Positions 16,234 to 59,006 of a stretch of 64,000 bases of DNA are shown in pieces. The notes below the pieces were generated by a model. That model had not been told where the DNA came from, did no database searches, and saw only the letters and a program-made list of their open reading frames with translations. Each line of letters starts with the position of its first letter. The first letter of the stretch is position 1. The stretch is from Acuticoccus sp. MNP-M23. Lineage in GTDB: Bacteria > Pseudomonadota > Alphaproteobacteria > Rhizobiales > Amorphaceae. The DNA lies in NCBI RefSeq assembly GCF_031195445.1, contig NZ_CP133480.1, positions 3,836,501 through 3,900,500 on the forward strand, in the 5' to 3' direction. A program made the position numbers and the translations under genes.

Positions 16234-16629
16234 ATGTCATCTGAGGATCTTCGCCCGAAAGGGCCGCCAACTATCCGGGTCATTGCCATGCCGGCCGACA
16301 CCAATCCCGCCGGAGACATTTTCGGCGGCTGGTTGATGAGCCAGATGGACCTCGCGGCGGGGACCGTGGCGGCCCGCCGGTCTCGCGGCCGCAGTTCGAC
16401 CATCGCTGTCGACGGAATGAAGCTCCATCGCCCGGTCAGGATCGGCGATGAGGTGTCGCTTTATGCCGAGATCGAGAAGGTCGGCCGCAGTTCAATGCGG
16501 ATCCATGTCGAGGCGTGGCGGCGCGAACGCCATGCGGAGGACACCGAGCTCGTCACCGAGGCGACGTTCACCTTCGTTGCGCTCGATGGCGACGGCCGCC
16601 CGCGTCCGGTAGATTCTCCTCCGACCTGA
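16234..16629 (+). CDS. Acyl-CoA thioesterase, YciA-like hotdog protein
   Basis: The 131-residue product carries the YciA/BFIT hotdog signature PADTNPAGDIFGGWLMSQMD, with the catalytic Asp in that motif, followed by the GMKLHRPVRIGDEV strand. It would hydrolyse acyl-CoA thioesters in the cytosol and is expected to be a hexamer. The ATG at 16234 is chosen since family members begin about 15 residues before the motif. It is 99 bp after tctA and possibly monocistronic, followed by a stem-loop. Confidence 0.9.
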   Translation: MSSEDLRPKGPPTIRVIAMPADTNPAGDIFGGWLMSQMDLAAGTVAARRSRGRSSTIAVDGMKLHRPVRIGDEVSLYAEIEKVGRSSMRIHVEAWRRERHAEDTELVTEATFTFVALDGDGRPRPVDSPPT

Positions 16630-16639
16630 GCCTCAACTG

Positions 16640-16662
16640 GCCGGAGGGAAGCGTCCTCCGGC
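16640..16662 (+). terminator. Stem-loop after the thioesterase gene
   Basis: Perfect 8-base arms (GCCGGAGG at 16640-16647 and its complement at 16655-16662) enclose a 7-base loop. The structure begins 11 bases after the thioesterase stop. No U-tract follows, so intrinsic termination is uncertain. Confidence 0.45.
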
Positions 16663-17124
16663 GCGCGGCTTCCATTCATGCGAGCAACCGATCGGCGTCC
16701 AGCGTCAATCGAACGGATCCCGGCTGGCTTGGATGCTGGAGCGAGCCGCCCGGTAATCTTGGCTGCGGCGCTGTTGAACACGATCGCGCGCGGCATCCGG
16801 CGGATATTGACGCGACACGAAAACCGTCATGGCCCGACGTCTATGGGCGTCTCATGTGTTGCCGGCCGCGCCGGCGGGCAGGGGAGTCTCCCGGCATCTT
16901 TTGGATGTGCTTCAGAAAAGTGGAGAGTTCCCCTGAGGTGAAAGGCGCACCCGAGGGCGAAGCAGCGACGATTTACGAAGGAAGGGGCCGCCATCCGAAG
17001 GCACTCGCGGTGCCAGCAGCCGGTCCCGCGCATCGCTGTCCTTCGCTCATCGCGTTCAGAGCTGCGCACAAATGGTAGCACATGTGGCACCGCGCCGCAC
17101 CCAAGGAAATTGAGAAATCGAATG
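16663..17124. other. Non-coding stretch upstream of pufL; no LH1 genes
   Basis: Both strands were read for the small pufB and pufA (LH1 beta/alpha) frames expected before pufL. None is present, and no hydrophobic 45-60-codon frame with a His ligand occurs. Open frames here are arginine-rich shadows. A short palindrome CACATGTG occurs at 17079-17086. The composition becomes AT-rich only near 17100. Confidence 0.6.
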
Positions 17125-17160
17125 TGTAAATCTAAATTTACATTTATGTAAATGTAAGTT
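17125..17160. promoter_or_regulatory. AT-rich palindrome cluster upstream of pufL, PpsR/CrtJ-like TGT-N12-ACA
   Basis: TGTAAAT (17125-17131), spacer CTAA and ATTTACA (17136-17142) form a perfect inverted repeat that also reads TGT-N12-ACA, the spacing of PpsR/CrtJ operators. Sharing its right arm, TTTACAT (17137-17143) and ATGTAAA (17146-17152) form a second perfect inverted repeat. A partial half-site TGTAAG follows at 17154-17159. A TTGACG that could be a -35 begins at 17159, without a convincing -10. The classical PpsR consensus has C and G inside the TGT/ACA pair, which are A and T here. The assignment is therefore tentative. Confidence 0.5.
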
Positions 17161-17214
17161 GACGTCGCTTGCCTTCGTTTGGCATGACTCGAGCAGCAGA
17201 GTCGGAGGCAAACG

Positions 17215-18033
17215 ATGGCGCTTCTTACATTTGAAGCCAAATACCGTGCCCGCGGGGGCAACCTTGTCGGCGGGTCGCTGTTCGATTTCTGGGTCGGGCC
17301 GTTCTACGTCGGCTTCTTCGGCGTCACGGCGCTGATTTTCGCCACCGTCGGCACGTTGCTGATCGTCTACGGCGCGGCGATCGGGCCGACCTGGAACATC
17401 TGGCAGATTACCATCGCCCCGCCACCGCTGAAGTACGGGCTCGGCTTCGCCCCCTTGCGGGACGGCGGGCTCTGGCAGCTCATCACCATCTGCGCCCTCG
17501 GTGCGTTCATTTCGTGGGCGCTGCGTCAGGTGGAGATCGCCCGCAAGCTGGGCATGGGCTACCACGTCCCCATCGCCTTCAGCGCGGCGATCTTCGCCTA
17601 CGCCACGCTCGTCGTCATCCGGCCGGTCATGCTCGGCGCCTGGGGGCACGGCTTTCCGTACGGCATCTTTGCCCACCTCGACTGGGTGTCGAACGTTGGC
17701 TACCAGTATCTCCACTTCCACTACAATCCGGCGCACATGCTCGCGGTGACGTTCTTCTTCACCACCACGCTCATGCTGGCGATGCACGGCGGCGTGATCC
17801 TGTCGGTCGTCAACCCCGGCGACCGCCAGACGGTGAAGTTCGGCGAGCACGAGAACCAGTATTTCCGCGACGTGATCTTCTACTCGATCGGGCCGCTCGG
17901 CATCCATCGGCTTGGCTGGTTTCTGGCAATCAACGCCGGCGTCTGGAGCGCGATCTGCATCATCCTGAGCGGCCCGTTCTGGGTCGACGGATGGCCGTAC
18001 TGGTACGACTGGTTCCTGTCGCTGATCAACTGA
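17215..18033 (+). CDS. pufL: Photosynthetic reaction centre L subunit
   Basis: The 272-residue product has five transmembrane helices and is a clear homologue of purple-bacterial PufL. Bacteriochlorophyll ligands are present (His154 in IFAHLDW, His174 in NPAHM), as are His169 and the iron/quinone ligands His191 and His231. Glu213 is conserved near QB, followed by Asn214. That Asn corresponds to L213, which is Asp in Rhodobacter sphaeroides but Asn in Blastochloris viridis. The Ser in FYSIG is also kept. With PufM it binds the special pair, pheophytins and quinones in the inner membrane. A GGAGG site lies 6 bases before the ATG. It is the first gene of the cluster, with no pufBA before it. Confidence 0.97.
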
Positions 18034-18073
18034 ACCCGCCGCCAGAGCTACTTCTCAAACGGATCTGAAAGCT

Positions 18074-19099
18074 ATGTCCCAATTCCAGAGCGTCTGGACG
18101 CGCATGCAGGTTTTCGGCCCGCCGCAGGTGCCTGTGTCACTGCCCGGTCGAGACGTTTCCCGCTTCGGTGGCGAGCGCCTGGTACGGTTGATCGGCAAGA
18201 TCGGGGACCCGCAGGTCGGTCCGTTCTACCTCGGCTATGTGGGCTGGGCCTCGATCATCTGCGGCACGATCGCCATCTGCATCATCGGCTTCAACTTCTG
18301 GGCCAGCGTGGACTGGAGCATCTACCGGTTCATCACCGGCATGGGGTGGCACCGGCTGGAGCCGCCGGGGCCGGAGTTCGGCCGCAACCCGTTCGCGCCG
18401 CTGCAGGAAGGCGGCTGGTGGATGATGGCCGGGTTCTTCCTCACGGCGGCGATCCTCCTGTGGTGGTGTCGCATCTACTGGCGGGCGCGTGCGCTCGGCA
18501 TGGGCACCCACGTGTCGTGGGCGTTCGCCTCGGCGATCTTCCTTTACCTCTCGCTCGGCTTCTTCCGGCCACTGCTGCTCGGCGACTGGTCCGAAGCGCC
18601 ACCATTCGGCATCATCCCGCACCTCAACTGGACGGCGACGGTCTCCGTTCTTTACGGCAACTGGTATTATAACCCGTTCCACTGTTTCGCGATCATGTTC
18701 CTCTACGGGTCGGTGCTCCTGTTTGCGATGCACGGCGGTACCATCCTCGCGACTGCGCGTTTTGGCGGGGAGCGCGAGGCGGAGGAGATCGTCTACCGCG
18801 GCACCGCCGCCGAGCGCGGCGCGCTGTTCTGGCGCTGGACGATGGGCTTCAACGCAACCTTCGAATCGATCCACCGCTGGGCCTTCTGGTTCGCCACGCT
18901 GACGACGTTTGCAGGCGCCATCGGCGTGCTTCTCACCGGCACCGTGGTCGACAACTGGTATCTGTGGGGCGTGAAGTGGGGTCTCGCGCCAGAGTATGCC
19001 CCGGTCTACGACGCGATACCCGTTCCTGCCGAGCTGATGCCGGAAGCGCTGAAGGGCGTCTCCCTCTCACCTGAAGCGATGCGGGAGTTCGGGCAATGA
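18074..19099 (+). CDS. pufM: Photosynthetic reaction centre M subunit
   Basis: The 341-residue product is a five-helix PufM. All key residues are present: His183 and His203 for bacteriochlorophyll, Tyr211, iron ligands His220, Glu233 and His267, and Trp254 beside QA. It is about 35 residues longer than the R. sphaeroides protein. It carries the C-terminal tail seen in species that use a bound tetraheme cytochrome, which fits the pufC gene directly behind. The start lies 40 bp after pufL and the stop overlaps pufC by 4 bp. Confidence 0.97.
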
Positions 19100-20643
19100 A
19101 ACGCGATAATATCGGCCATGTCCTGCGCGGCGCGGCATACGTCCTGCGCGTCCGGGAAGAAGAGCGGAGGCGCCGCGCGCTGGCGGACGCGAAGCGGCGC
19201 GTGGCCGAGGACCCGCAGGCCGCGCTGCAGGATGACCGCGGGAGCTGGGCCCGGACCGTCCGTCCGGCGCTGCACCTTGAGGAAGAAAAGCGGGAGGTGC
19301 GCCGTCCGGCGGGCGGCGAGTTCGGAACGCCGGATGAACCCTCGGTCGATTCGAACGACCGGCTCGTCCACGCCGAGGTGGCGCAAGAGGGCGAGAGCTG
19401 GGTGCGCGAGCGGCGGCCGCTTCCGCCGGGGCTTGCCGAAGAGGAACGCCGCCTGACCGAGCGCGACCCGTTGCAGGTGCGCGCCGCCGGGGCGGAGGAT
19501 CGGCGCTCCGCTGATGGCGGGCGGCACCGCGGCTGGATCCTCGGTGGCGCGGTGGCGCTGTCGGTCGCCATTGTCGGGGTGATCGTCGGGCTGCCCACCT
19601 ATGACGCGCCGTGGACGGTCCAGTCGACCGAATGGGGCAACCGCGCCCTCGCCATGGACACGTTCACCTCGGCGCGGACCCGCTCGAACCCCGTCAACAA
19701 GCCGAGCCCCGTGCTTCCTGCGGTCGCGGCATCCGGGACGACCGCTGGCGAGGCGTACCAGAACGTCCAGGTACTTGGCGATCTCGACAAGGCGGAGTTC
19801 GACCGCACCATGCAGGCCATCACCGCCTGGGTTTCGCCGGACGAGGGGTGCAGCCACTGCCACGCCGGCGACGACTATGCGGCGGAGGGCCCCTACACCA
19901 AGGACGTCGCCCGCGCCATGCTGAAGATGGTGCGCGGCGTGAACGCCGGCGGCACCCACGTCGCACCGTCTGGCGTCACCTGCTACACCTGCCACCGCGG
20001 CGAGACGGTCCCCGCCAACAGCTGGACCAATCAGCCCGAGCACGACCCCGGTCCGGACTGGCTCGGCCCGCCGCAGCCGTGGCAGGATCAGGCGACGACC
20101 ATCCGCAAGTTCTTTCCCAACGCACCGTTCGAATGGTACATTGGGGGCGACAAGAAGATCGCCGGCCTGCAGGCGCGCACTCCGCTCGCCGGCGACGAGA
20201 AGATGGTCTTCGAGGATGGCGATCACACCTACATCCTGATGATGCAGTGGTCTGACGCTCTCGGCGTCAACTGCACCTACTGCCACAACAGCCGCGCCTT
20301 CTTCGACTGGACGCAAGGAACGCCCAAGCACGCCGAAGGCTACACCGGCCGCGTCCTCACCCACGGACTGATCACCAACGTCTTCGACCCCTTGGCAAAG
20401 CTTCTGCCCAAGGAGCGGCTCGGCCCGCTCGGCGATGCCTTCAAGCCCGACTGCAAGACCTGCCACACGGGCCTGCCGAAGCCGGTCGGCGGACAGAAGC
20501 TGGCGGCGCAGTATCCGGGGCTCGTCGGCGCGCCGACGGAGGCCTTCATCCCGGACGTTCCGACCGTGCGCGTGCCGCTCGCAAAGGGTGGCTGGGCGCC
20601 GACCACGGCGAGCGCGCCGACAGCACGGGAGGTCGCGCGATGA
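19096..20643 (+). CDS. pufC: Reaction centre tetraheme cytochrome c subunit with long N-terminal extension
   Basis: The 515-residue product has four CxxCH heme motifs (residues 252-256, 296-300, 393-397, 453-457) in the normal PufC arrangement. It re-reduces the photo-oxidised special pair from the periplasmic side. The membrane anchor is at about residues 147-166 and has no lipobox Cys. Ahead of it lies a highly charged, Glu/Arg-rich segment of about 145 residues that would be cytoplasmic. Usual PufC proteins are about 320-380 residues with the anchor or signal at the very start. The extension holds two related motifs (SWARTVRP...LEEEKR near 50-67; SWVRERRP...LAEEERR near 101-119). The ATG is fixed by the ATGA overlap with pufM. 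No alternative start with a better site is evident. Confidence 0.94.
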
Positions 20644-20714
20644 GTTTTCGCCCGTCCACCGCGCGGGAGAGCCGCGCGACAGTCTCAACCCCTCACGCGC
20701 GAGGCGCACGATGA
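20640..20714 (+). CDS. Putative 24-residue linking ORF between pufC and puhA
   Basis: A frame of 25 codons ([12 protein letters not shown]...) starts with ATGA overlapping the pufC stop. It ends with a TGA that overlaps the puhA start codon in the same ATGA fashion. It could relay ribosomes from pufC to puhA across what would otherwise be a 67-base gap, or it may be chance. The peptide is Arg/Ser-rich with no membrane segment and no known relatives that I recognise. Confidence 0.35.
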   Translation: MSFRPSTARESRATVSTPHARGAR

Positions 20715-21487
20715 CCGAAGTGCCCACCGTCCTTGGCGATATCGACGTTGCGTTCCTGTGCGTCGTCGCGTTCGTCATCTTCCTCTTCGTGCTGGTCTTC
20801 TACCTGCGGCGCGAGGACAAGCGCGAAGGCTACCCGCTGATCGGCGTGTCCGGCGCGCGCCATCCGCGTCTCACGTTGTCCGAGGGGTTCCCGCCGATGC
20901 CGGCGCCCAAGACGTTTCATCTGCCGCACGGGCGCGACCCGGTGACCGTGCCGCGCGAGGAGGTGCCGGAGCCGCTGCACGACGTCACCGGCCGCCCGGC
21001 CTACGGCCTGCCGCTGGAATCGCCGCGTCCGTTGTCGGCCGGGATCGGTGCCGCCGCGTTCCAGGCGCAGAAGCCGGACCTGCCGGACCTCACCAACGAG
21101 GGCGAGCCCAAGCTGCTCTCGCTGAACAGCCACCCGGATCACTACATCCCGCGCGGCGGGGCCGATCCGCGGGGCTGGGTGCTGGCTGACAAGGAAGGGC
21201 TGCCGGTCGGTCGCATCGTCGACATCTGGTTCAATCAGGCCGAGTACGACGTGCGTTACTTCAGTTACAGCATCGACGGTGTCGTCGGCCTGTGGCTGGC
21301 GCCGACCTATTTCTGCGCGCTGGACAGGGCGCGCGGGACGGCGCGGGTGACGACGCTTCCGCTGGAAGCGCTGCGCCATCCTCCCGTTCGCGCGGGGGAG
21401 GTGGTGACGTTCCGCGACGAGGACCGCGTCAACGGCTTCTTCGCCGGCGGCATCCAGTTTGGAGGCGCCAGTGTCGCTCGCCACTAA
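20711..21487 (+). CDS. puhA: Photosynthetic reaction centre H subunit
   Basis: The 258-residue product has one N-terminal membrane helix (about 12-31) followed by a cytoplasmic PRC-type beta-barrel (GWVLADKEGLPVGRIVDIWF, VRYFSYSI), the PuhA pattern. It caps the LM dimer on the cytoplasmic side and lines proton paths to QB. The ATG at 20711 is chosen because translation then begins just before the helix, as in the family. In most purple bacteria puhA sits far from puf in a bch-containing operon. Here it follows pufC directly. Confidence 0.96.
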   Translation: MTEVPTVLGDIDVAFLCVVAFVIFLFVLVFYLRREDKREGYPLIGVSGARHPRLTLSEGFPPMPAPKTFHLPHGRDPVTVPREEVPEPLHDVTGRPAYGLPLESPRPLSAGIGAAAFQAQKPDLPDLTNEGEPKLLSLNSHPDHYIPRGGADPRGWVLADKEGLPVGRIVDIWFNQAEYDVRYFSYSIDGVVGLWLAPTYFCALDRARGTARVTTLPLEALRHPPVRAGEVVTFRDEDRVNGFFAGGIQFGGASVARH

Positions 21488-22145
21488 CCTCGCCTTCACC
21501 GAGGCTTCACACGACGACAAGCTGGCGCCGATGCCCGCAGCCGACGATCCGCTTGCGGGCCTTCCCGGCGCGCTGCCTGCGGGAGAAACCGTCCTGTGGC
21601 GCGGCCGTCCGGACTTCTGGACGCTCGCGGTGGATTGCTACCGGGTGCGTGCGGTCGCGCTTTACCTGGCCGCCATGGCGGTGCTTGCGGCGAGCGCCAT
21701 CACGGCGAGCGGCGCACCCTTGCAAAATGCCGTACTGGCAACGGCGATCATCTTCGTTCCGCTGTCCATCCTCGGTCTCGGCCTGCTTGCCATCGGTGCG
21801 CTGTTGGCGGCGAAAACCACCAGCTACTTCGTGACGGAGCGCAGGGTCATCCTTCTGATCGGCGTCGCCTTCACGAAGTGCGTCAATATTCCGCTGAGCA
21901 AGATCGACGGCGTTTCGATCCGTGCGCGGCGCAGAAGGGGCGACGACATCGCTCTGTCGGTGCGTCCGGGGCAGGGGCCGGGCGCGCTGGTGTTGTGGCC
22001 GCATGCAAGGGTGACGCGCGGGCTGCGCTGCCAGCCCGTCCTGCGGGGCCTTGCCGATGCAAAGGCGGCGTCCGCCACGCTCTGCGACGCTCTCATCCGC
22101 AGCGAGGGCGGCGCCATGATCGACGCACCCGGCGGCAAGCCATGA
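21471..22145 (+). CDS. puhB: Photosynthetic complex assembly protein PuhB
   Basis: The 224-residue membrane protein has two or three helices around 62-130, followed by a PH-like domain (TSYFVTERRVILLIGVAF, IPLSKIDGVSIRARR). This matches PuhB, the factor needed for reaction-centre assembly. The GTG at 21471 is taken as start because GGAGG lies 5 bases upstream. It overlaps the end of puhA by 17 bp. The stop overlaps puhC by 4 bp. Confidence 0.92.
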   Translation: MSLATNLAFTEASHDDKLAPMPAADDPLAGLPGALPAGETVLWRGRPDFWTLAVDCYRVRAVALYLAAMAVLAASAITASGAPLQNAVLATAIIFVPLSILGLGLLAIGALLAAKTTSYFVTERRVILLIGVAFTKCVNIPLSKIDGVSIRARRRRGDDIALSVRPGQGPGALVLWPHARVTRGLRCQPVLRGLADAKAASATLCDALIRSEGGAMIDAPGGKP

Positions 22146-22588
22146 GCGACGAGCCGATCCGCGTCCCGCGCGGCGCACTGGTCGCCGCCGCCGTCCTCAT
22201 CGCGTTCGTCTTCACCGCAACGATCGTGGCCCGGCAGACGGACCGCGGCATCTTCCGTCCCGCGAACGCCGCGGTCGAGGCGTCACGCGCGATCCGCTTC
22301 GTGCGCGACGATCCGCAGGGGCCGCTCGTCGCCTATTCGCTCGACGGCCAGGCGCTTGCGACCTTCCCGATCGAAGGCGGAAGCTTCGCGATTGCGGCCG
22401 TCGAGGCGCTATCCCGAAAGGCGCACCGGCGCATCGACGGCGACGGCGCGGTGTTCACCTTGCGCCTTGGAACGGACCATCGCTGGTCGCTCAGCGATCC
22501 ATCGACGGAACGGGCGGTTCCGCTCGCGGGGTTCGGCTCCACGAATATCAAGGCGTTCTCGAACCTGATGAGTGAAGCGCCGCAATGA
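22142..22588 (+). CDS. puhC: Photosynthetic complex assembly protein PuhC
   Basis: The 148-residue product has one N-terminal membrane helix (about 13-30) and a periplasmic domain, and matches PuhC by size, topology and position. The segment VARQTDRGIF after the helix is typical. It is implicated in assembly or organisation of the reaction-centre/LH1 complex. It is the last gene of the cluster. The puhE and acsF genes that often follow elsewhere are absent. Confidence 0.88.
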   Translation: MSDEPIRVPRGALVAAAVLIAFVFTATIVARQTDRGIFRPANAAVEASRAIRFVRDDPQGPLVAYSLDGQALATFPIEGGSFAIAAVEALSRKAHRRIDGDGAVFTLRLGTDHRWSLSDPSTERAVPLAGFGSTNIKAFSNLMSEAPQ

Positions 22589-22595
22589 TGCGGCC

Positions 22596-22628
22596 GCCCG
22601 GAATGCTGCGCTGAGAGGCGTTCCGGGC
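22596..22628. terminator. Bidirectional stem-loop terminator between puhC and the EEP gene
   Basis: Eleven-base arms (22596-22606, GCCCGGAATGC; 22618-22628) pair with one G-U across an 11-base loop. It fills the 42-bp gap between two convergent stops (22588 and 22631) and could serve both strands. No long U-tract is present. Confidence 0.6.
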
Positions 22629-22630
22629 TG

Positions 22631-23746
22631 CTATTGCGACCGGCTCTCCGGCTGAAGCGCTTTGGCAGCTTCAATCGCGGCCTCGGCCTCCGCCAGATCG
22701 TTGGCCCGCAACGCCGGTGGCGTCTGTTCCAGCGATGACGGCGGCACCTGGCACAGGCGCGCCAGAACAGGGAAATGGTCCGACCCGAAGTCCGGCAGGA
22801 CCTCGAACCCGACAAGACCGAACCCGTCCTGATAAAGGATCTGGTCCAGCGGCCACGACATCCAGATGCTGTTGGTCTTGAATGTCGAATAGTTGCCGCG
22901 GCCGATCCGTGGATCGAGAAGACCGGCAATGCGGTCGGCGCGGCGGGTGACATCTTCCCACGGCACGGCGTTGAAGTCGCCGGCGAGGATGGTCGGCGCA
23001 GCGTTCGCGCGTGCCTCGAGCGCGGCGCTCAGGATGTGCCCGTCCCGCAAGGTGGTCGACTTGACCCCGACCATCGGCGGATGCGGGTGGAGCGCCACAA
23101 ACTGCACCGTCGTGCCGTTGTGCAGTTGGAGCCCGGTGTAGAGCGTGGGCGAGTAGGCATCGAACAGGAAGCGGAACTCCGGCGAGACGAGCGGGAGCTT
23201 GGACAGAAGATGCATTCCGAAGGCGCCGTGCCCCTCGGGGATGAACTGCTCGCGGTGCGGGTAGCTGTCCGCGAGCGGCGTGAGCTGACGGTCCCACCAC
23301 GGATCGGTCTCCATGATGAGGAGGACGTCCGGCTCGACCTCGCCGACGAGCTTGAGAAAGGCGTCCGACGTCTCGTTGCGCTCCTTGACGTTCGCAACCA
23401 TCACCGAGAGTGCGTTCTCCGGGGCGCACGCCACGACGGAAGCGGCAGCGTGCGGCCGCAGCGGGATGTAGGGGGACAGCCGCGAGGCGTGATAGACCAG
23501 CGCCGCGAACACAAGCGCCGAGAGGACCCAGCCGATCCGCCCCGCACGTCCCCGCAGGACCAGGAAGGCCGGCAGCAGGATGACGAGGGCGACCGCGAAC
23601 TGCAGGCGCGGGAAATCGGCGTACCGCACCCACGAGGTGTCGGTTCTGATAAGGGGCAGGGCCGAAGCCAGCAGCGTGATCCCGAGGAGGATGCCGACCG
23701 CCGCCAAAGCCCACACCCGCCATCGACTTGCGTATCTGTTGGCCAT
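22631..23746 (-). CDS. Membrane-anchored endonuclease/exonuclease/phosphatase family protein
   Basis: The 371-residue product has three N-terminal membrane helices (about 10-32, 47-65 and 70-87). A periplasmic EEP domain follows with METDPWW, ALHPHPP, AGDFNAVPWEDV and GSDHFPV, which carry the Glu, Asn, Asp and His of the metal-dependent active site. A charged C-terminal tail ends it. The same layout occurs in alphaproteobacterial membrane proteins annotated as EEP hydrolases, where the substrate (nucleic acid, phospholipid or phosphoester) is unproven. It is convergent with the photosynthesis cluster and has no evident link to it. Confidence 0.85.
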   Translation of the reverse strand: MANRYASRWRVWALAAVGILLGITLLASALPLIRTDTSWVRYADFPRLQFAVALVILLPAFLVLRGRAGRIGWVLSALVFAALVYHASRLSPYIPLRPHAAASVVACAPENALSVMVANVKERNETSDAFLKLVGEVEPDVLLIMETDPWWDRQLTPLADSYPHREQFIPEGHGAFGMHLLSKLPLVSPEFRFLFDAYSPTLYTGLQLHNGTTVQFVALHPHPPMVGVKSTTLRDGHILSAALEARANAAPTILAGDFNAVPWEDVTRRADRIAGLLDPRIGRGNYSTFKTNSIWMSWPLDQILYQDGFGLVGFEVLPDFGSDHFPVLARLCQVPPSSLEQTPPALRANDLAEAEAAIEAAKALQPESRSQ

Positions 23747-54420: not shown

Positions 54421-57400
54421 TCAGAAGATGAAATTGCCCTCGTCGAGCGTGAAGTTGATACCCTGCAGCTCGATCGTCCCTTCCGAGAACTCGATCGTCA
54501 CGTCGCTCAGATTACCGGCGGTCGGCACCACGTTGATATCAAGCTCGTCGAAGCTCTCGACACTGAAGACGCCCTGGAGGTCGATCGTCTCGTTGGCCTT
54601 GAAGTCGAGGATGAGGTCATCGCCGAAATCTTCGTCGCTGAAGACGAACGTGTCGCGGCCATCGCCACCGGTGAGGCGGTCGTCGCCATCGCCGCCTTCG
54701 ATGGTGTCATGTCCGGCGCCGCCGTCAATGGAATCGGCACCGTCGCCGGCGTTGATCTGGTCTTTGCCGTTCCCGCCCGAAATATCGTCGAAGCCGTTGC
54801 CGCCGTTGATGCGGTCATTGTTGGCGCCGCCGTCGATCACGTCGTTGCCGTCGCCGCCGTTGATGCGGTCGTTGCCCGAACCACCGTCGATGGTGTCGTT
54901 GCCCTCGTCGCCTTCGATCATGTCGACGCCATTGCCGCCGAAAATCTGGTCTGCGCCTTCGCCGCCGAACAGGCGGTCGTTGCCGTTGCCGCCATCGAGG
55001 ACATCGTTGCCGGCATCGCCGTGGAGGAAGTCGATGTCGTCGCCGCCGAACAGCTCGTCCCAGCCGCCACCGCCGCTGATCTGGTCCCGCCCGCCGCCGC
55101 CGAACAGGTCGTTGCGGAAATCGTCACCTTCGAGGATGTCGTCCTTTGCGGTGCCGACAATGTTCTCGATCCCAGTCACCTCGTCGCCCGCAGCGTCGCC
55201 GCCGGAGAAGAAACCGAATTCGAGGTTGACCGCAATGCCGTCGTCCGAGGCGGAATAGCTGAGCGTGTCGATCCCCGATTCGCCGCGGATGTCGTCAGCT
55301 CCCGCGCCGCCGATGATGAAATCGTCGCCTGAGCCGGCCCTGATCACGTCGTTGCCGTCGCCGCCGTCCAGCGTGTCGTTGCCGGCATCGCCGAACATCG
55401 TGTCGTCGCCGCCAAGGCCACGGAAGAGGTCGTCGTCAACGCCGCTGTTGTTGTCGTCGATCACCTCGTCCTGCTCGGAGCCGGTGACCGTGTCCGCGCC
55501 GGACGTGCCGTGGATGCTGATGGTATCGCCAGCGTCCGTATCGATGCCGCCGAAGGTGACGCCCGACAGGTCGACGTCCCGGGCGTTGCGGATGTCGACC
55601 GTCACCCGGTTGGCGTCGATCGCGTTGAGCTGGGTGAGGCTGGCAAGGTCCGCGCCGTCGGCCCGCAGGGTCACGTTGCCGGTTCCGAGGAACTCGACCA
55701 CCTCGATCCCGGTGACGGTGTCGTCGAGAAGATCGATGTCGTTGTCGGTGACGCGCAGCGTATCGGTGCCGGCGCCGCCGTCGACGGTGTCTCGTGTGAG
55801 CTGGTCGGCCACGATGAGGTCGTCGCCATCGCCAGCCGCGATGTTGTTGGTGGCGTCATTGCCGCCGACGGTGTCGTTGAAGGCCGAGCCGATGATATCA
55901 TCGATGCCGGCGTATGTGTCGCCTTCGGCGAAACCGCCAGAGCCGACAAAGTTGCCCTGGAGCCTCACGTTCACACCGGCGTTGGAGGTGGAGTAGTCGA
56001 CCGTATCGCGGTTACGGCCGCCGTTCAGGATATCCGCGCCCTCGGAGCCGATGAAGGTGTCGTTGCCGTCATGGCCGATCAGCGTGTCGTTTCCGGCGCC
56101 GCCGTCGATGGTGTCGTTGCCGTTGTCGCCGAGGATCGAATCGTCACCGGCGCCGCCGAAGACCCGGTCGTCGCCACCGTTGGCATCCAGCGTATCGTCC
56201 TGGTCGGAGAGGGTGATCCGGTCCGCGCCATTGCTGCCGAAGACTGTGATGGTGTCGCCGGTGCCGGTATCGATCCCCTCCAGCGCAATGCGGCTGAGGT
56301 CAAAGTCCGGGCCCGCGTTGCGGATCTCGATGCGGACATTGCCGCTGGTGAGCGAGCGGATGACGTTGACGTCCGCAAGGTCCGCAGCATCGACCCGCAG
56401 GGTGATGTCGCCGCCGTTGCCGCTGCCGACGAGTTCGATCACCTCGATGTTGGTGATGGTGTCGTCGAGGAGGTCGAGGTCGTTGTCGACGAGGCGCAGG
56501 GTGTCGAAGTTGCCGCTGCCGCCGTCGAACACGTCGCGGCCCATCCGGGTGACGATGAAGGTGTCGTTGCCGCTGCCGCCGTCGACGGTGTCGGCCCCAT
56601 CGGCGTCGTCGAGGATCGTATCGAAGCCGCCGCCGGCGTCGATGAAATTGTTGCCGTTGTTGCCGCTCAGGGTATCGTCGCGGTCGGAGCCGATGATGTC
56701 GTCGACGCCGGCGTAGGTGTCACCTTCGGCCAGACCGCCCGAGCCGGCGTTGTTGCTTCCAAGGTCGATTTTCACGCCCTCGGTAGAAGCGGAATAGTCG
56801 ATCGTGTCCCTTCCACGGCCGCCGTCGATAACGTCCGCGCCCTTTGAGCCGATGAAGGTGTCGTTGCCGTCAGCGCCGCGCAGGGTATCGTTGCCGGCGC
56901 CGCCGTCGATGGTGTCGTTGCCCTTGTCGCCCAAGATCGAATCGTCACCGGCACCGCCGAAGACCCGGTCATCACCGCCGTTGGCGTCCAGCGTATCGTC
57001 CTGATCGGAGAGGACGATGGTGTCCGCGCCATTCGTGCCCGAGACGAAAATCTCGTCACCAGCGCTCGTGTTGATCCCCTCCAGTGCGATGCGACTGAAG
57101 TCGAAATCGGGTCCGGCGTTGAAGACCTGGATGCGGACATTGCCGCTGGTGAGCGAGCGGATGATGTTGACGTCCGCAAGGTCCGCAGCGTCGACCCGCA
57201 GGACCATGTCGCCACCGTTGCCGCTGCCGACGAGTTCGATCACCTCGATGTTGGTGATGGTGTCGTCGAGGAGATCGAGGTCGTTGTCGACGAGGCGCAG
57301 GGTGTCGAAGTTGCCGCTGCCGCCGTCGAACACGTCGCGGCCCATCCGGGTGACGATGAAGGTGTCGTTGCCGCTGCCGCCGTCGACGGTGTCGGACCCC

Positions 57401-58641
57401 TCGGCGTCGTCGAGGATCGTATCGAAGCCGCCGCCGGCGTCGATGAAATTGTTGCCGTTGTGGCCGTTGAGGGTGTCGTCGTGGATGGAGCCGATGATGT
57501 CGTCGACGCCGGAATAGGTGTCGCCTTCGGCCAGACCGCCCGAGCCTGCGACGTTGCTTTCAAGGTTGACGTTCACGCCTTCGCTGGAGGCGGAATAGTC
57601 GACCGTGTCGCGGCCGCCGCCGCCGTCGAGAACATCCGCGCCCTCGGAGCCGATGAAGGTGTCATTGCCGTTAGCGCCGCGCAGGGTATCGTTGCCGGCG
57701 CCGCCGTCGATGGTGTCGTTGCCGTTGTCGCCGAAGATCGAATCGTCACCGGCACCGCCGAAGACCCGGTCATCACCGCTGTTGGCATCCAGCGTATCGT
57801 CCTGGTCGGAGAGGATGATGGTGTCTGCACCATTGGTGCCGAAGACGAAGATCTCGTCCGCCGCGCTGGTGTCGATGCCTTCCAGCGTGATCTGCGACAG
57901 GTCGAAATTGCCGGCGTTGAAGATCTCGATGCGCGTGTTGCCGGGGGCAAGGGAGCGGATGGTCGTGACGCCGGCGAGGTCCGCCGCGTCGATCCGCAGC
58001 CGGACGTCCCCGCCGTCGCCGACGAGTTCGATTACCTCGAAGCCGGTCACGGTATCGTTGAGGAGGTCGAGGGTGGAGGCGCCCTCGAAGCGCAGCGTGT
58101 CGGTGCCGGTGCCGCCCTCGTACGTATCGCCGGAACCATTGTCGGTGACGAGTGTATCGTTGCCGGCGCCCAGATCGATTGTGTCGCTGTTGTTATCGGA
58201 GTCGATGACGGTGTCGTCGCCGTCGCCGGTCTCGATCACGTTGCGGCCGGAGTGGCCCGTCACAGTGTCTGCAAAGTCGGAGCCGATCACGCCGTCGACG
58301 CCCCTGTACGTGTCGCCTTCGGCAAAACCCCCGGTGCCGCTGCCCTCCAGAACGACGTTGACGCCCGCCGTAGAGGTGGAATAGTCGACCGTGTCGAAGT
58401 CGCGGTCGCCGAAGATGAAGTCAGCGCCTTCCGAACCAATGAACAGGTCGTTCCCGTCGCCGCCGATCAGGGTGTCGTTCCCGGCGCCGCCGTCCAGCGT
58501 GTCGTTGCCGCCGTCGCCCAGAATGCCGTCGTTGCCGCCGAGGCCGCTCAGCGAGTCATTCCCGCCGTTGCCGTCGATGAGATCGTTTTCGTCGGTCCCG
58601 TTCAGGACGTTCGCATTGTTGTTGCCATTGATGTCGGCCAT
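54421..58641 (-). CDS. Giant RTX calcium-binding repeat protein, type I secretion substrate
   Basis: The 1406-residue acidic protein is built almost entirely of GGxGxDxxx nonapeptide blocks (GGAGNDTL, GGDGNDTF). These alternate with three or four longer supermodules that contain AEGDTYxGVDDIIGS and LDLLDDT(I/V)TxIEVIELVG strands. The C-terminus (DTFVFSDEDFGDDLILDFK..., ending EGNFIF) is the usual uncleaved type I secretion region with a terminal hydrophobic Phe. No N-terminal signal is seen. It would be exported by an ABC-HlyD-TolC machine and fold with Ca2+ outside the cell. It has no catalytic domain that I recognise, so adhesion, surface layer or biofilm roles are possible. The ATG at 58641 is preferred (GGGAAAA upstream) over a TTG at 58665. 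No secretion genes are nearby. Confidence 0.9.
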   Translation of the reverse strand: MADINGNNNANVLNGTDENDLIDGNGGNDSLSGLGGNDGILGDGGNDTLDGGAGNDTLIGGDGNDLFIGSEGADFIFGDRDFDTVDYSTSTAGVNVVLEGSGTGGFAEGDTYRGVDGVIGSDFADTVTGHSGRNVIETGDGDDTVIDSDNNSDTIDLGAGNDTLVTDNGSGDTYEGGTGTDTLRFEGASTLDLLNDTVTGFEVIELVGDGGDVRLRIDAADLAGVTTIRSLAPGNTRIEIFNAGNFDLSQITLEGIDTSAADEIFVFGTNGADTIILSDQDDTLDANSGDDRVFGGAGDDSIFGDNGNDTIDGGAGNDTLRGANGNDTFIGSEGADVLDGGGGRDTVDYSASSEGVNVNLESNVAGSGGLAEGDTYSGVDDIIGSIHDDTLNGHNGNNFIDAGGGFDTILDDAEGSDTVDGGSGNDTFIVTRMGRDVFDGGSGNFDTLRLVDNDLDLLDDTITNIEVIELVGSGNGGDMVLRVDAADLADVNIIRSLTSGNVRIQVFNAGPDFDFSRIALEGINTSAGDEIFVSGTNGADTIVLSDQDDTLDANGGDDRVFGGAGDDSILGDKGNDTIDGGAGNDTLRGADGNDTFIGSKGADVIDGGRGRDTIDYSASTEGVKIDLGSNNAGSGGLAEGDTYAGVDDIIGSDRDDTLSGNNGNNFIDAGGGFDTILDDADGADTVDGGSGNDTFIVTRMGRDVFDGGSGNFDTLRLVDNDLDLLDDTITNIEVIELVGSGNGGDITLRVDAADLADVNVIRSLTSGNVRIEIRNAGPDFDLSRIALEGIDTGTGDTITVFGSNGADRITLSDQDDTLDANGGDDRVFGGAGDDSILGDNGNDTIDGGAGNDTLIGHDGNDTFIGSEGADILNGGRNRDTVDYSTSNAGVNVRLQGNFVGSGGFAEGDTYAGIDDIIGSAFNDTVGGNDATNNIAAGDGDDLIVADQLTRDTVDGGAGTDTLRVTDNDIDLLDDTVTGIEVVEFLGTGNVTLRADGADLASLTQLNAIDANRVTVDIRNARDVDLSGVTFGGIDTDAGDTISIHGTSGADTVTGSEQDEVIDDNNSGVDDDLFRGLGGDDTMFGDAGNDTLDGGDGNDVIRAGSGDDFIIGGAGADDIRGESGIDTLSYSASDDGIAVNLEFGFFSGGDAAGDEVTGIENIVGTAKDDILEGDDFRNDLFGGGGRDQISGGGGWDELFGGDDIDFLHGDAGNDVLDGGNGNDRLFGGEGADQIFGGNGVDMIEGDEGNDTIDGGSGNDRINGGDGNDVIDGGANNDRINGGNGFDDISGGNGKDQINAGDGADSIDGGAGHDTIEGGDGDDRLTGGDGRDTFVFSDEDFGDDLILDFKANETIDLQGVFSVESFDELDINVVPTAGNLSDVTIEFSEGTIELQGINFTLDEGNFIF
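56134..57735. repeat. Tandem 801-bp units within the RTX gene
   Basis: The marker GATCGAATCGTCACCGG recurs at 56134, 56935 and 57736, exactly 801 bp (267 codons) apart, and long stretches between them are nearly identical. Two full periods are therefore present, with diverged half-units on either side (the outer N-terminal one about 783 bp). The high identity points to recent duplication or gene conversion. Confidence 0.85.
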
Positions 58642-59006
58642 GGTTTTCCCGCGTGCTGTTTTCAAACCACCGGCCCATTGCCGGTCTTACAGCGGCTCCG
58701 TCGCGCTATTGCAGAATGCGGTTCAAAAATTTTCTCTTGTATTTCCATCCGCCCGTCGGCGCTGCCTCGCGGCACATCGTTGCGCGGAGGATTGGCGATG
58801 CTTGGCGGCGAACGCGCCGCATACCTTTCGCAATGGCGCGCTCCCTCGTGAAGCGCGCCGTTTCCTTGTTCAGCCGATCGATCTTTGCGGCCTGATCGCT
58901 GTCGGCCCGGGCGCCTGAAGGACCTGCATTGTCCGAGGTGCAGAGCGAGCGCGGGCTGACTCCCGGCCAACCCAAGCCCTCCATGCCGAGCCTCGGATCC
59001 CGGTGA
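58642..59006. other. 365-bp intergenic region upstream of the RTX gene
   Basis: A perfect hairpin (ACCGGC at 58669-58674, GCCGGT at 58680-58685, 5-base loop) lies in the RTX leader, 28-44 bases from its ATG, and could modulate translation. The rest holds the promoter. A 92-codon minus frame (58706-58984) includes IDRLNKETARFTRERAIAK, faintly like the coiled segment of IS3 OrfA. It is not called as a gene. Confidence 0.45.

Follow-up and report, generated by a model that had tools for sequence, protein, structure and literature searches.

A second, LH1-free reaction-centre gene cluster in Acuticoccus sp. MNP-M23 and its counterparts in other genomes

Purple-bacterial reaction centres (RCs) are taught as the core of a light-harvesting 1 (LH1) ring. 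The closest described relative of the system analysed here comes from Citromicrobium sp. JL354 which, according to a 2012 report, carries a complete photosynthesis gene cluster (PGC) together with an "incomplete PGC" of the order pufLMC-puhCBA, the latter located in an integrative and conjugative element (ICE) (PMC3338782). That report places PufM and PufC of the incomplete PGC nearest to Fulvimarina pelagi and states that two coexisting PGCs were then known only from JL354 (PMC3338782). In a 2025 review, the second, antenna-less set of one strain is still called unique (PMC12654162), and another 2025 study has a second PufM of a Hyphomonas clustering with Sphingomonadales (PMC12700997). Here we describe a compact cluster of this kind, pufLMC-puhABC, at positions 17215-22588 of the window, a 64-kb stretch of the Acuticoccus sp. 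MNP-M23 genome. The original prediction for this locus, which set the arrangement apart from that of familiar purple bacteria, went too far: there is a precedent, the JL354 incomplete PGC with the same gene set having been published in 2012 (PMC3338782).

The window resembles JL354 in that a second RC stands beside a complete PGC, with the same six genes and no pufBA, and in its kinship, the relative being Fulvimarina pelagi there and the nearest ordinary kin being Aurantimonadaceae here. Contiguous pufLMC and puhABC, no pufBA with the cluster, a PGC elsewhere in the genome and PufLM kinship are all found, where the PGC elsewhere was judged by pufBALMC, lhaA-puhABC, bchNBHLM, acsF, bchCXYZ and ppsR. 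The two systems also differ: the JL354 set is reported to lie inside an ICE whereas the 16 flanking genes scanned here include no ICE-type gene, the convergent puf and puh of JL354 are collinear in the window, the window PufC has about 130 extra residues and the host belongs to another order, as suggested by the order it shares with Methylobacterium-type genomes. The arrangement is thus known but rare, and the window adds a case from a different lineage with its genes collinear. What is new is a family of 13 such clusters within one PufLM clade, with a regulatory motif and, where tested, selection. We found no report of this wider family, the operator motif or the selection in the literature, which is weak evidence as many subscription papers were outside our reach.

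The six genes follow one another on the forward strand and their products match profiles of the L, M and H subunits, a tetraheme cytochrome and two assembly factors, as predicted. pufL (17215-18033) and pufM (18074-19099) encode the RC L and M subunits (TIGR01157, 392.9 bits against a cut-off of 266.2; TIGR01115, 451.8 against 364.25), pufC (19096-20643) encodes the tetraheme cytochrome (NF040706, 303.8 against 150), in which four CxxCH motifs were seen by eye, and puhA (20711-21487) encodes a divergent H subunit, matching PF03967 (PRCH) at 105.8 bits. The assembly factors are encoded by puhB (21531-22145, TTG at 21459 being another possible start; NF040894, 147.5 against 110) and puhC (22142-22588; TIGR03054, 86.5 against 55). 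Both starts are our own reading and the profiles were scored on 21459-22145 and 22139-22588, respectively. Five of the six proteins (PufL, PufM, PufC, PuhB and PuhC) exceed their NCBIfam cut-offs while PuhA scores just below that of TIGR01150 (194.8 against 200) but passes Pfam. All six frames are open. The genes had been described as overlapping, which is accurate for pufM/pufC and, with the chosen puhC start, puhB/puhC (four bases each), whereas the remaining junctions are gaps of 40 (pufL-pufM), 67 (pufC-puhA) and, with the chosen puhB start, 43 bases (puhA-puhB). In an alignment with ordinary copies, the His pairs, the Fe ligands and Glu213/Asn214 of L are present. The predicted set of intact ligands stands except for one number, the QA-side Trp being M253 by count and not 254. 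Between its usual first residues (MKRD..) and the membrane anchor, the window PufC carries about 130 extra charged, R/E-rich residues (region 19096-19530) with no Pfam or NCBIfam match. This block was considered as a family trait and rejected, the Porphyrobacter, Tranquillimonas and Methylobacterium sp. 2A clusters introduced below (L100, L105 and L178) being without it.

The cluster encodes a complete type-II RC, the second of the genome. As the original prediction had suggested for a second RC unit, the 5.16-Mb host genome (G000) contains four Photo_RC matches. Two lie in the window and the others, at C1:4.1194-4.1211 Mb, belong to a main bchCXYZ-pufBALMC set about 260 kb away on the same 4.945-Mb contig. 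PuhA also occurs twice, the other copy following bchNBHLM-lhaA and preceding puhBC and acsF; this region, with ppsR, is farther along that contig. The only two matches to LHC (PF00556) in the whole genome, at C1:4.1213-4.1217 Mb, are the pufBA pair of the main operon, and LH1 is hence encoded elsewhere, as anticipated. The genome-wide look for pufBA, bch and a second pufLM that had been proposed located pufBALMC, bchCXYZ and bchNBHLM outside the window, and family searches add acsF to the host inventory. Compared with an ordinary PGC (bchCXYZ-pufBALMC plus lhaA-puhABC), the window has the same subunits, families and ligand motifs but is without LH1 and bchCXYZ and has puh directly after puf. 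Two other accounts were rejected: a sole RC with a distant LH1 by the four Photo_RC matches, and a recent duplication of the main copy because identity between the sets is low (69% for L, 59% for M and 36% for C) and they fall into other clades. The distance of the cluster from the main copy in L and M would also suit an assembly or binning artefact in which foreign genes were joined to the contig. Such an error is extremely improbable, as the cluster lies inside the 4.945-Mb contig, its G+C content is 0.675 against 0.663 for the window and 12 further genomes have LH1-free second sets as well.

The genome samples surveyed overlap and are drawn from larger groups, and counts below run over related rows that are not independent. 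Photo_RC is matched by 75 of 397 genomes in the order sample and 26 of 385 in the class sample, with four matches in G000 only. All 75 other puf loci examined have a pufA match ahead of pufL (74 of these loci, including the G000 main set, come from the order sample and one from a plasmid; locus L087 is cut by a contig end and pufB was not seen), the exceptions being the window and a genome of the same genus, G006 (L018). A plasmid search returned 11 records, and the gene order of one, from Methylobacterium aquaticum, is ordinary. When GTDB contigs were scanned with the window PufM and the best 80 loci kept, three were compact and LH1-free: those of the Porphyrobacter RI_32 metagenome-assembled genome (MAG; L100), Tranquillimonas alkanivorans (L105) and Methylobacterium sp. 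2A (L178), each from a genome with four Photo_RC matches. Among the other 77, L168 and L169 start at pufL and are not judgeable. Further, the genus of G220 is treated as Methylobacterium, since named Methylobacterium cluster with it and one member shares the coordinates of 2A; 107 of its 111 genomes match and four have four matches. Family f64 has 76 matching genomes among 397, of which 75 exceed the cut-off; the six with four matches are all in genus g419, whose seventh matching genome has two. We take g419 to be Citromicrobium, which is a guess, and JL354 is not known to be among the genomes analysed.

In total, 13 clusters were identified in 13 genomes: the host, four Methylobacterium-type genomes, Tranquillimonas, the Porphyrobacter MAG and six g419 members. 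None of the 13 has an LH1 match beside it and all 13 genomes also carry a bch-pufBALM operon. Eight clusters are convergent, pufLMC facing puhCBA, and five are collinear, namely the window and the four Methylobacterium-type clusters, in which no puhC was matched. The fetched stretch of the main operon has no pufC match in eight of the 13 genomes and the second set would therefore supply the tetraheme cytochrome there. The surroundings of two clusters contain other genes: ku and ligD (end-joining repair) lie directly upstream of the second RC of Tranquillimonas (L105:4790-8148), and a Crp-type regulator, a response regulator and a PAS histidine kinase upstream of that of Methylobacterium sp. 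2A (L178:3634-7953).

Other candidates from the survey did not qualify. Two Methylobacterium-type genomes with three matches were rejected as carriers of second sets, the coordinates showing an ordinary pufL matched in two pieces (G785:C1:1183511-1184241 and G842:C1:364992-365724), a sequencing error or a broken gene. A Methylibium MAG locus that appears twice (L134 and L183) was rejected as an LH1-free unit, its pufL being without the N-terminal part and puhA unmatched; it was left among the ordinary rows and is counted twice in the totals of 153 and 166 given below. This cluster (L134:9197-16660) consists of truncated pufL, pufM and pufC with no pufBA match, is by eye close to PpsR-like and phytochrome-like genes and is decayed or misassembled. 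In a gammaproteobacterial MAG (L167:9154-12600), pufBA is found downstream of pufLMC and not upstream.

Phylogenetic analysis places the window set apart from the main photosystem of its host. In a PufLM tree of 160 rows, the window groups with L100 and L105 (Shimodaira-Hasegawa-like approximate likelihood ratio test, SH-aLRT, 99), nested with Aurantimonadaceae, a Croceicoccus MAG and L178. A tree of 58 chosen rows has a 19-row clade (100/99), containing the 13 second copies, four Aurantimonadaceae, G348, which falls among these four, and the Croceicoccus MAG, and within it a nine-row subclade (100/98) in which the window stands with the six g419 second copies, Porphyrobacter and Tranquillimonas. 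The six members of the larger clade that are not second copies have pufBA. A single LH1-free clade of all 13 is absent from the best tree, yet the data do not reject it (approximately unbiased test, p-AU 0.19). The nearest LH1-bearing PufLM in the trees are those of Aurantimonadaceae (Jiella, Aurantimonas), which differ from the window in having a full operon with pufBA and bchCXYZ and in keeping His at position M302 (window numbering). The compact cluster of G006 from the host's own genus, pufLM-puhA-puhBC (G006:C12, L018:11132-15357), resembles the window in having no LH1 match on its 29-kb contig but differs in lacking pufC and having PuhB and PuhC fused. Its PufLM fall into another clade with f21 and f14 genomes, and the compact LH1-free organisation therefore seems to have arisen at least twice. 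The G006 contig with pufBA (L094) ends about 100 bases after pufA, before any pufL, and the cluster may be either a second set or the only one, moved to a new site.

The distribution of clusters points to movement between genomes. In four of the six g419 genomes, the common sequence around the cluster exceeds 15 kb, at about 93-96% identity, while L193 and L197 have only the cluster of about 5 kb in common with the other four and with each other. This is the expected trace of a module moving between sites, relocation within the genus being the alternative. The suggestion that the unit is possibly mobile thus gains from the comparison, which indicates transfer between genomes, and not from the window locus, where no integrase or conjugation gene is present among the 16 flanking genes scanned with Pfam (7402-31146), the rest of the window genes lying outside the scan. 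These 16 encode transporters, two-component systems, a thioesterase, an endonuclease-type protein, KatG and others, with no photosynthesis gene among them. Family searches gave no accepted match to LH1, bchCXYZ or lhaA in the window, crt, acsF and other bch genes not having been searched there by family, and the window has no tRNA. Farther away, 54421-58665 encodes a 1414-residue protein that, by eye, starts with many GGxGND-type calcium-binding repeats.

A candidate regulatory site precedes the cluster. A sigma-70-like promoter match on the forward strand (17110-17138), the only one in 16600-22900 (chance mean 0.7), has its -10-like hexamer overlapped by a palindromic TGT-N12-ACA (17125-17142) 90 bases before pufL, a candidate operator of the CrtJ/PpsR type. 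In a study on Rhodobacter capsulatus, CrtJ binds TGT-N12-ACA spanning the -35 and -10 regions of bchC (PMC5362033). Ordinary PGCs have the motif upstream of bchC (66 of 77 bchC upstream regions, our positive control), whereas in the window it is directly upstream of pufL. The same holds for 12 of the 13 clusters, where it lies 36-90 bases before pufL (150 bases searched; shuffle chance 0.012-0.056 per cluster), compared with two of 153 ordinary pufL genes (Fisher 1.9e-15, with related rows) and none of the 14 ordinary pufL genes in these 13 genomes plus a genus mate with a single set. The motif is also found at puhA in seven of the eight convergent clusters (L193 being without it) and in none of the five collinear ones, in keeping with puhA needing its own promoter in the former and lying inside the operon in the latter. 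The host encodes a PpsR (TIGR02040, 330.6 bits against a cut-off of 275.4), adjoined by a gene for an AerR-like B12-binding protein.

Ratios of nonsynonymous to synonymous substitution (dN/dS, NG86 method of Nei and Gojobori) indicate that such units are retained. Within g419 and the Methylobacterium type, second-copy pufL and pufM give 0.012-0.117 (16 values from eight pairs of eight clusters) and the ordinary copies of the same genome pairs 0.006-0.165 (16 values). The second pufL and pufM of two genera are under purifying selection as strong as that on the main copies. Second-copy pufC and puhA are looser (0.069-0.261). Since the window copy has no close relative and the available pairs are too distant, selection on it has to be read from these relatives, and together with the intact frames they suggest that it is functional. 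The original prediction of a functional unit is in line with this selection. A recently acquired, decaying and non-functional remnant of horizontal transfer would fit the patchy distribution (four Photo_RC matches in one of the 75 matching genomes of the order sample), the divergence of PuhA and PufC and the departure of the window from conserved positions more often than a typical ordinary copy. Decay is very unlikely, however, given six open frames, strong purifying selection in the relatives, an operator motif retained in 12 of 13 clusters and departure at just one of the 120 L/M positions that never vary in ordinary rows (M271, F in place of W; ordinary median 0). M271 is Trp in 166 of 166 ordinary rows and Phe or Tyr in 12 of 13 LH1-free copies.

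Taken together, we consider it probable that 17215-22588 encodes a functional, horizontally acquired, PpsR-controlled accessory RC that uses host bacteriochlorophyll. The genes would have been acquired by horizontal transfer from an RC lineage that also includes the photosystems of Aurantimonadaceae and would form a single operon whose promoter is controlled by the host PpsR/CrtJ repressor. The RC would be assembled with its own PuhB and PuhC, loaded with bacteriochlorophyll and quinone by the normal pathway of the host and re-reduced via its own tetraheme PufC. With no antenna genes of its own, it may work naked or borrow LH1 from the pufBA about 260 kb away. The sequence data establish the gene content, the status as a second copy, the clade, the operator-like motif with its place and the selection in relatives; expression, binding of PpsR, assembly, photochemistry and the antenna state are inferred.

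Several points weigh against this explanation. Window pufL and pufM compared with L100, L105 and L197 give dN/dS of 0.20-0.36, and pufC and puhA 0.45-0.74, at dS of 0.58-1.04. Further, LH1-free copies depart from near-invariant positions more often than ordinary ones, the window doing so at 17 of the 243 L/M positions with 95% conservation (the 166 ordinary rows have a median of 1.5). Some ordinary rows depart at 27-32 of these positions, and the window copy, although it exceeds a typical ordinary copy in divergence, stays within the range spanned by the most divergent of them. The motif alone is prone to chance matches (five in the window against 4.2 expected), and it is missing upstream of pufL in L190, one of the 13, and in the G006 cluster. 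The genus mates did not reveal an empty insertion site: matches to the flank DNA were only weak and scattered and, of ten flanking proteins, just one, two or three were matched per stretch in three genus mates, not together and including a histidine kinase and a response regulator, both common families.

Regarding the antenna, the second L, M and H subunits could act as an alternative core isoform, swapping into the LH1 ring of the host (pufBA in trans) to give a variant RC-LH1 complex. LH1 genes are present in all 13 genomes and the window cluster retains PuhC, whose role touches RC-LH1 assembly. We regard an isoform as possible, at somewhat below even chances; it is one branch of the explanation preferred above and the odds of the two overlap. 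It has to contend with the lack of any LH1 match beside the cluster in 13 of 13 cases and with position M302, occupied by His in 161 of the 166 ordinary rows, by W or N in all 13 LH1-free copies (W in the window) and by A in G006. M302, which corresponds to His M301 in the literature, was picked post hoc after all columns had been viewed. No other position with conservation of at least 95% departs in each of the three LH1-free lineages; L267 joins M302 at a 90% cut and none is left at 97%. Among control triples of LH1-bearing rows, eight of 455 share some departure. The five ordinary rows without His at M302 have pufBA and the position is therefore not strictly tied to LH1. That M302 faces LH1 is a guess, and a literature search on His M301 found no paper with that wording.

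An accessory RC of the host, as preferred here, could belong to a distinct family of antenna-free type-II RCs that are mobile, co-regulated with pigment synthesis, selected and working outside LH1, a proposal we put forward tentatively and hold at roughly one chance in three. If true, an antenna-free RC might serve high light or redox poise, for example, and the repeated disappearance of His M302, in up to three LH1-free lineages, would be the mark of a lost LH1 interface. For surveys based on pufLM, second sets mean that two RCs may be counted from one organism. With 13 sets, 12 of them carrying a PpsR-type motif and eight tested and under purifying selection, what looked like a curiosity becomes a testable question, namely how a cell benefits from a second RC without an antenna of its own.

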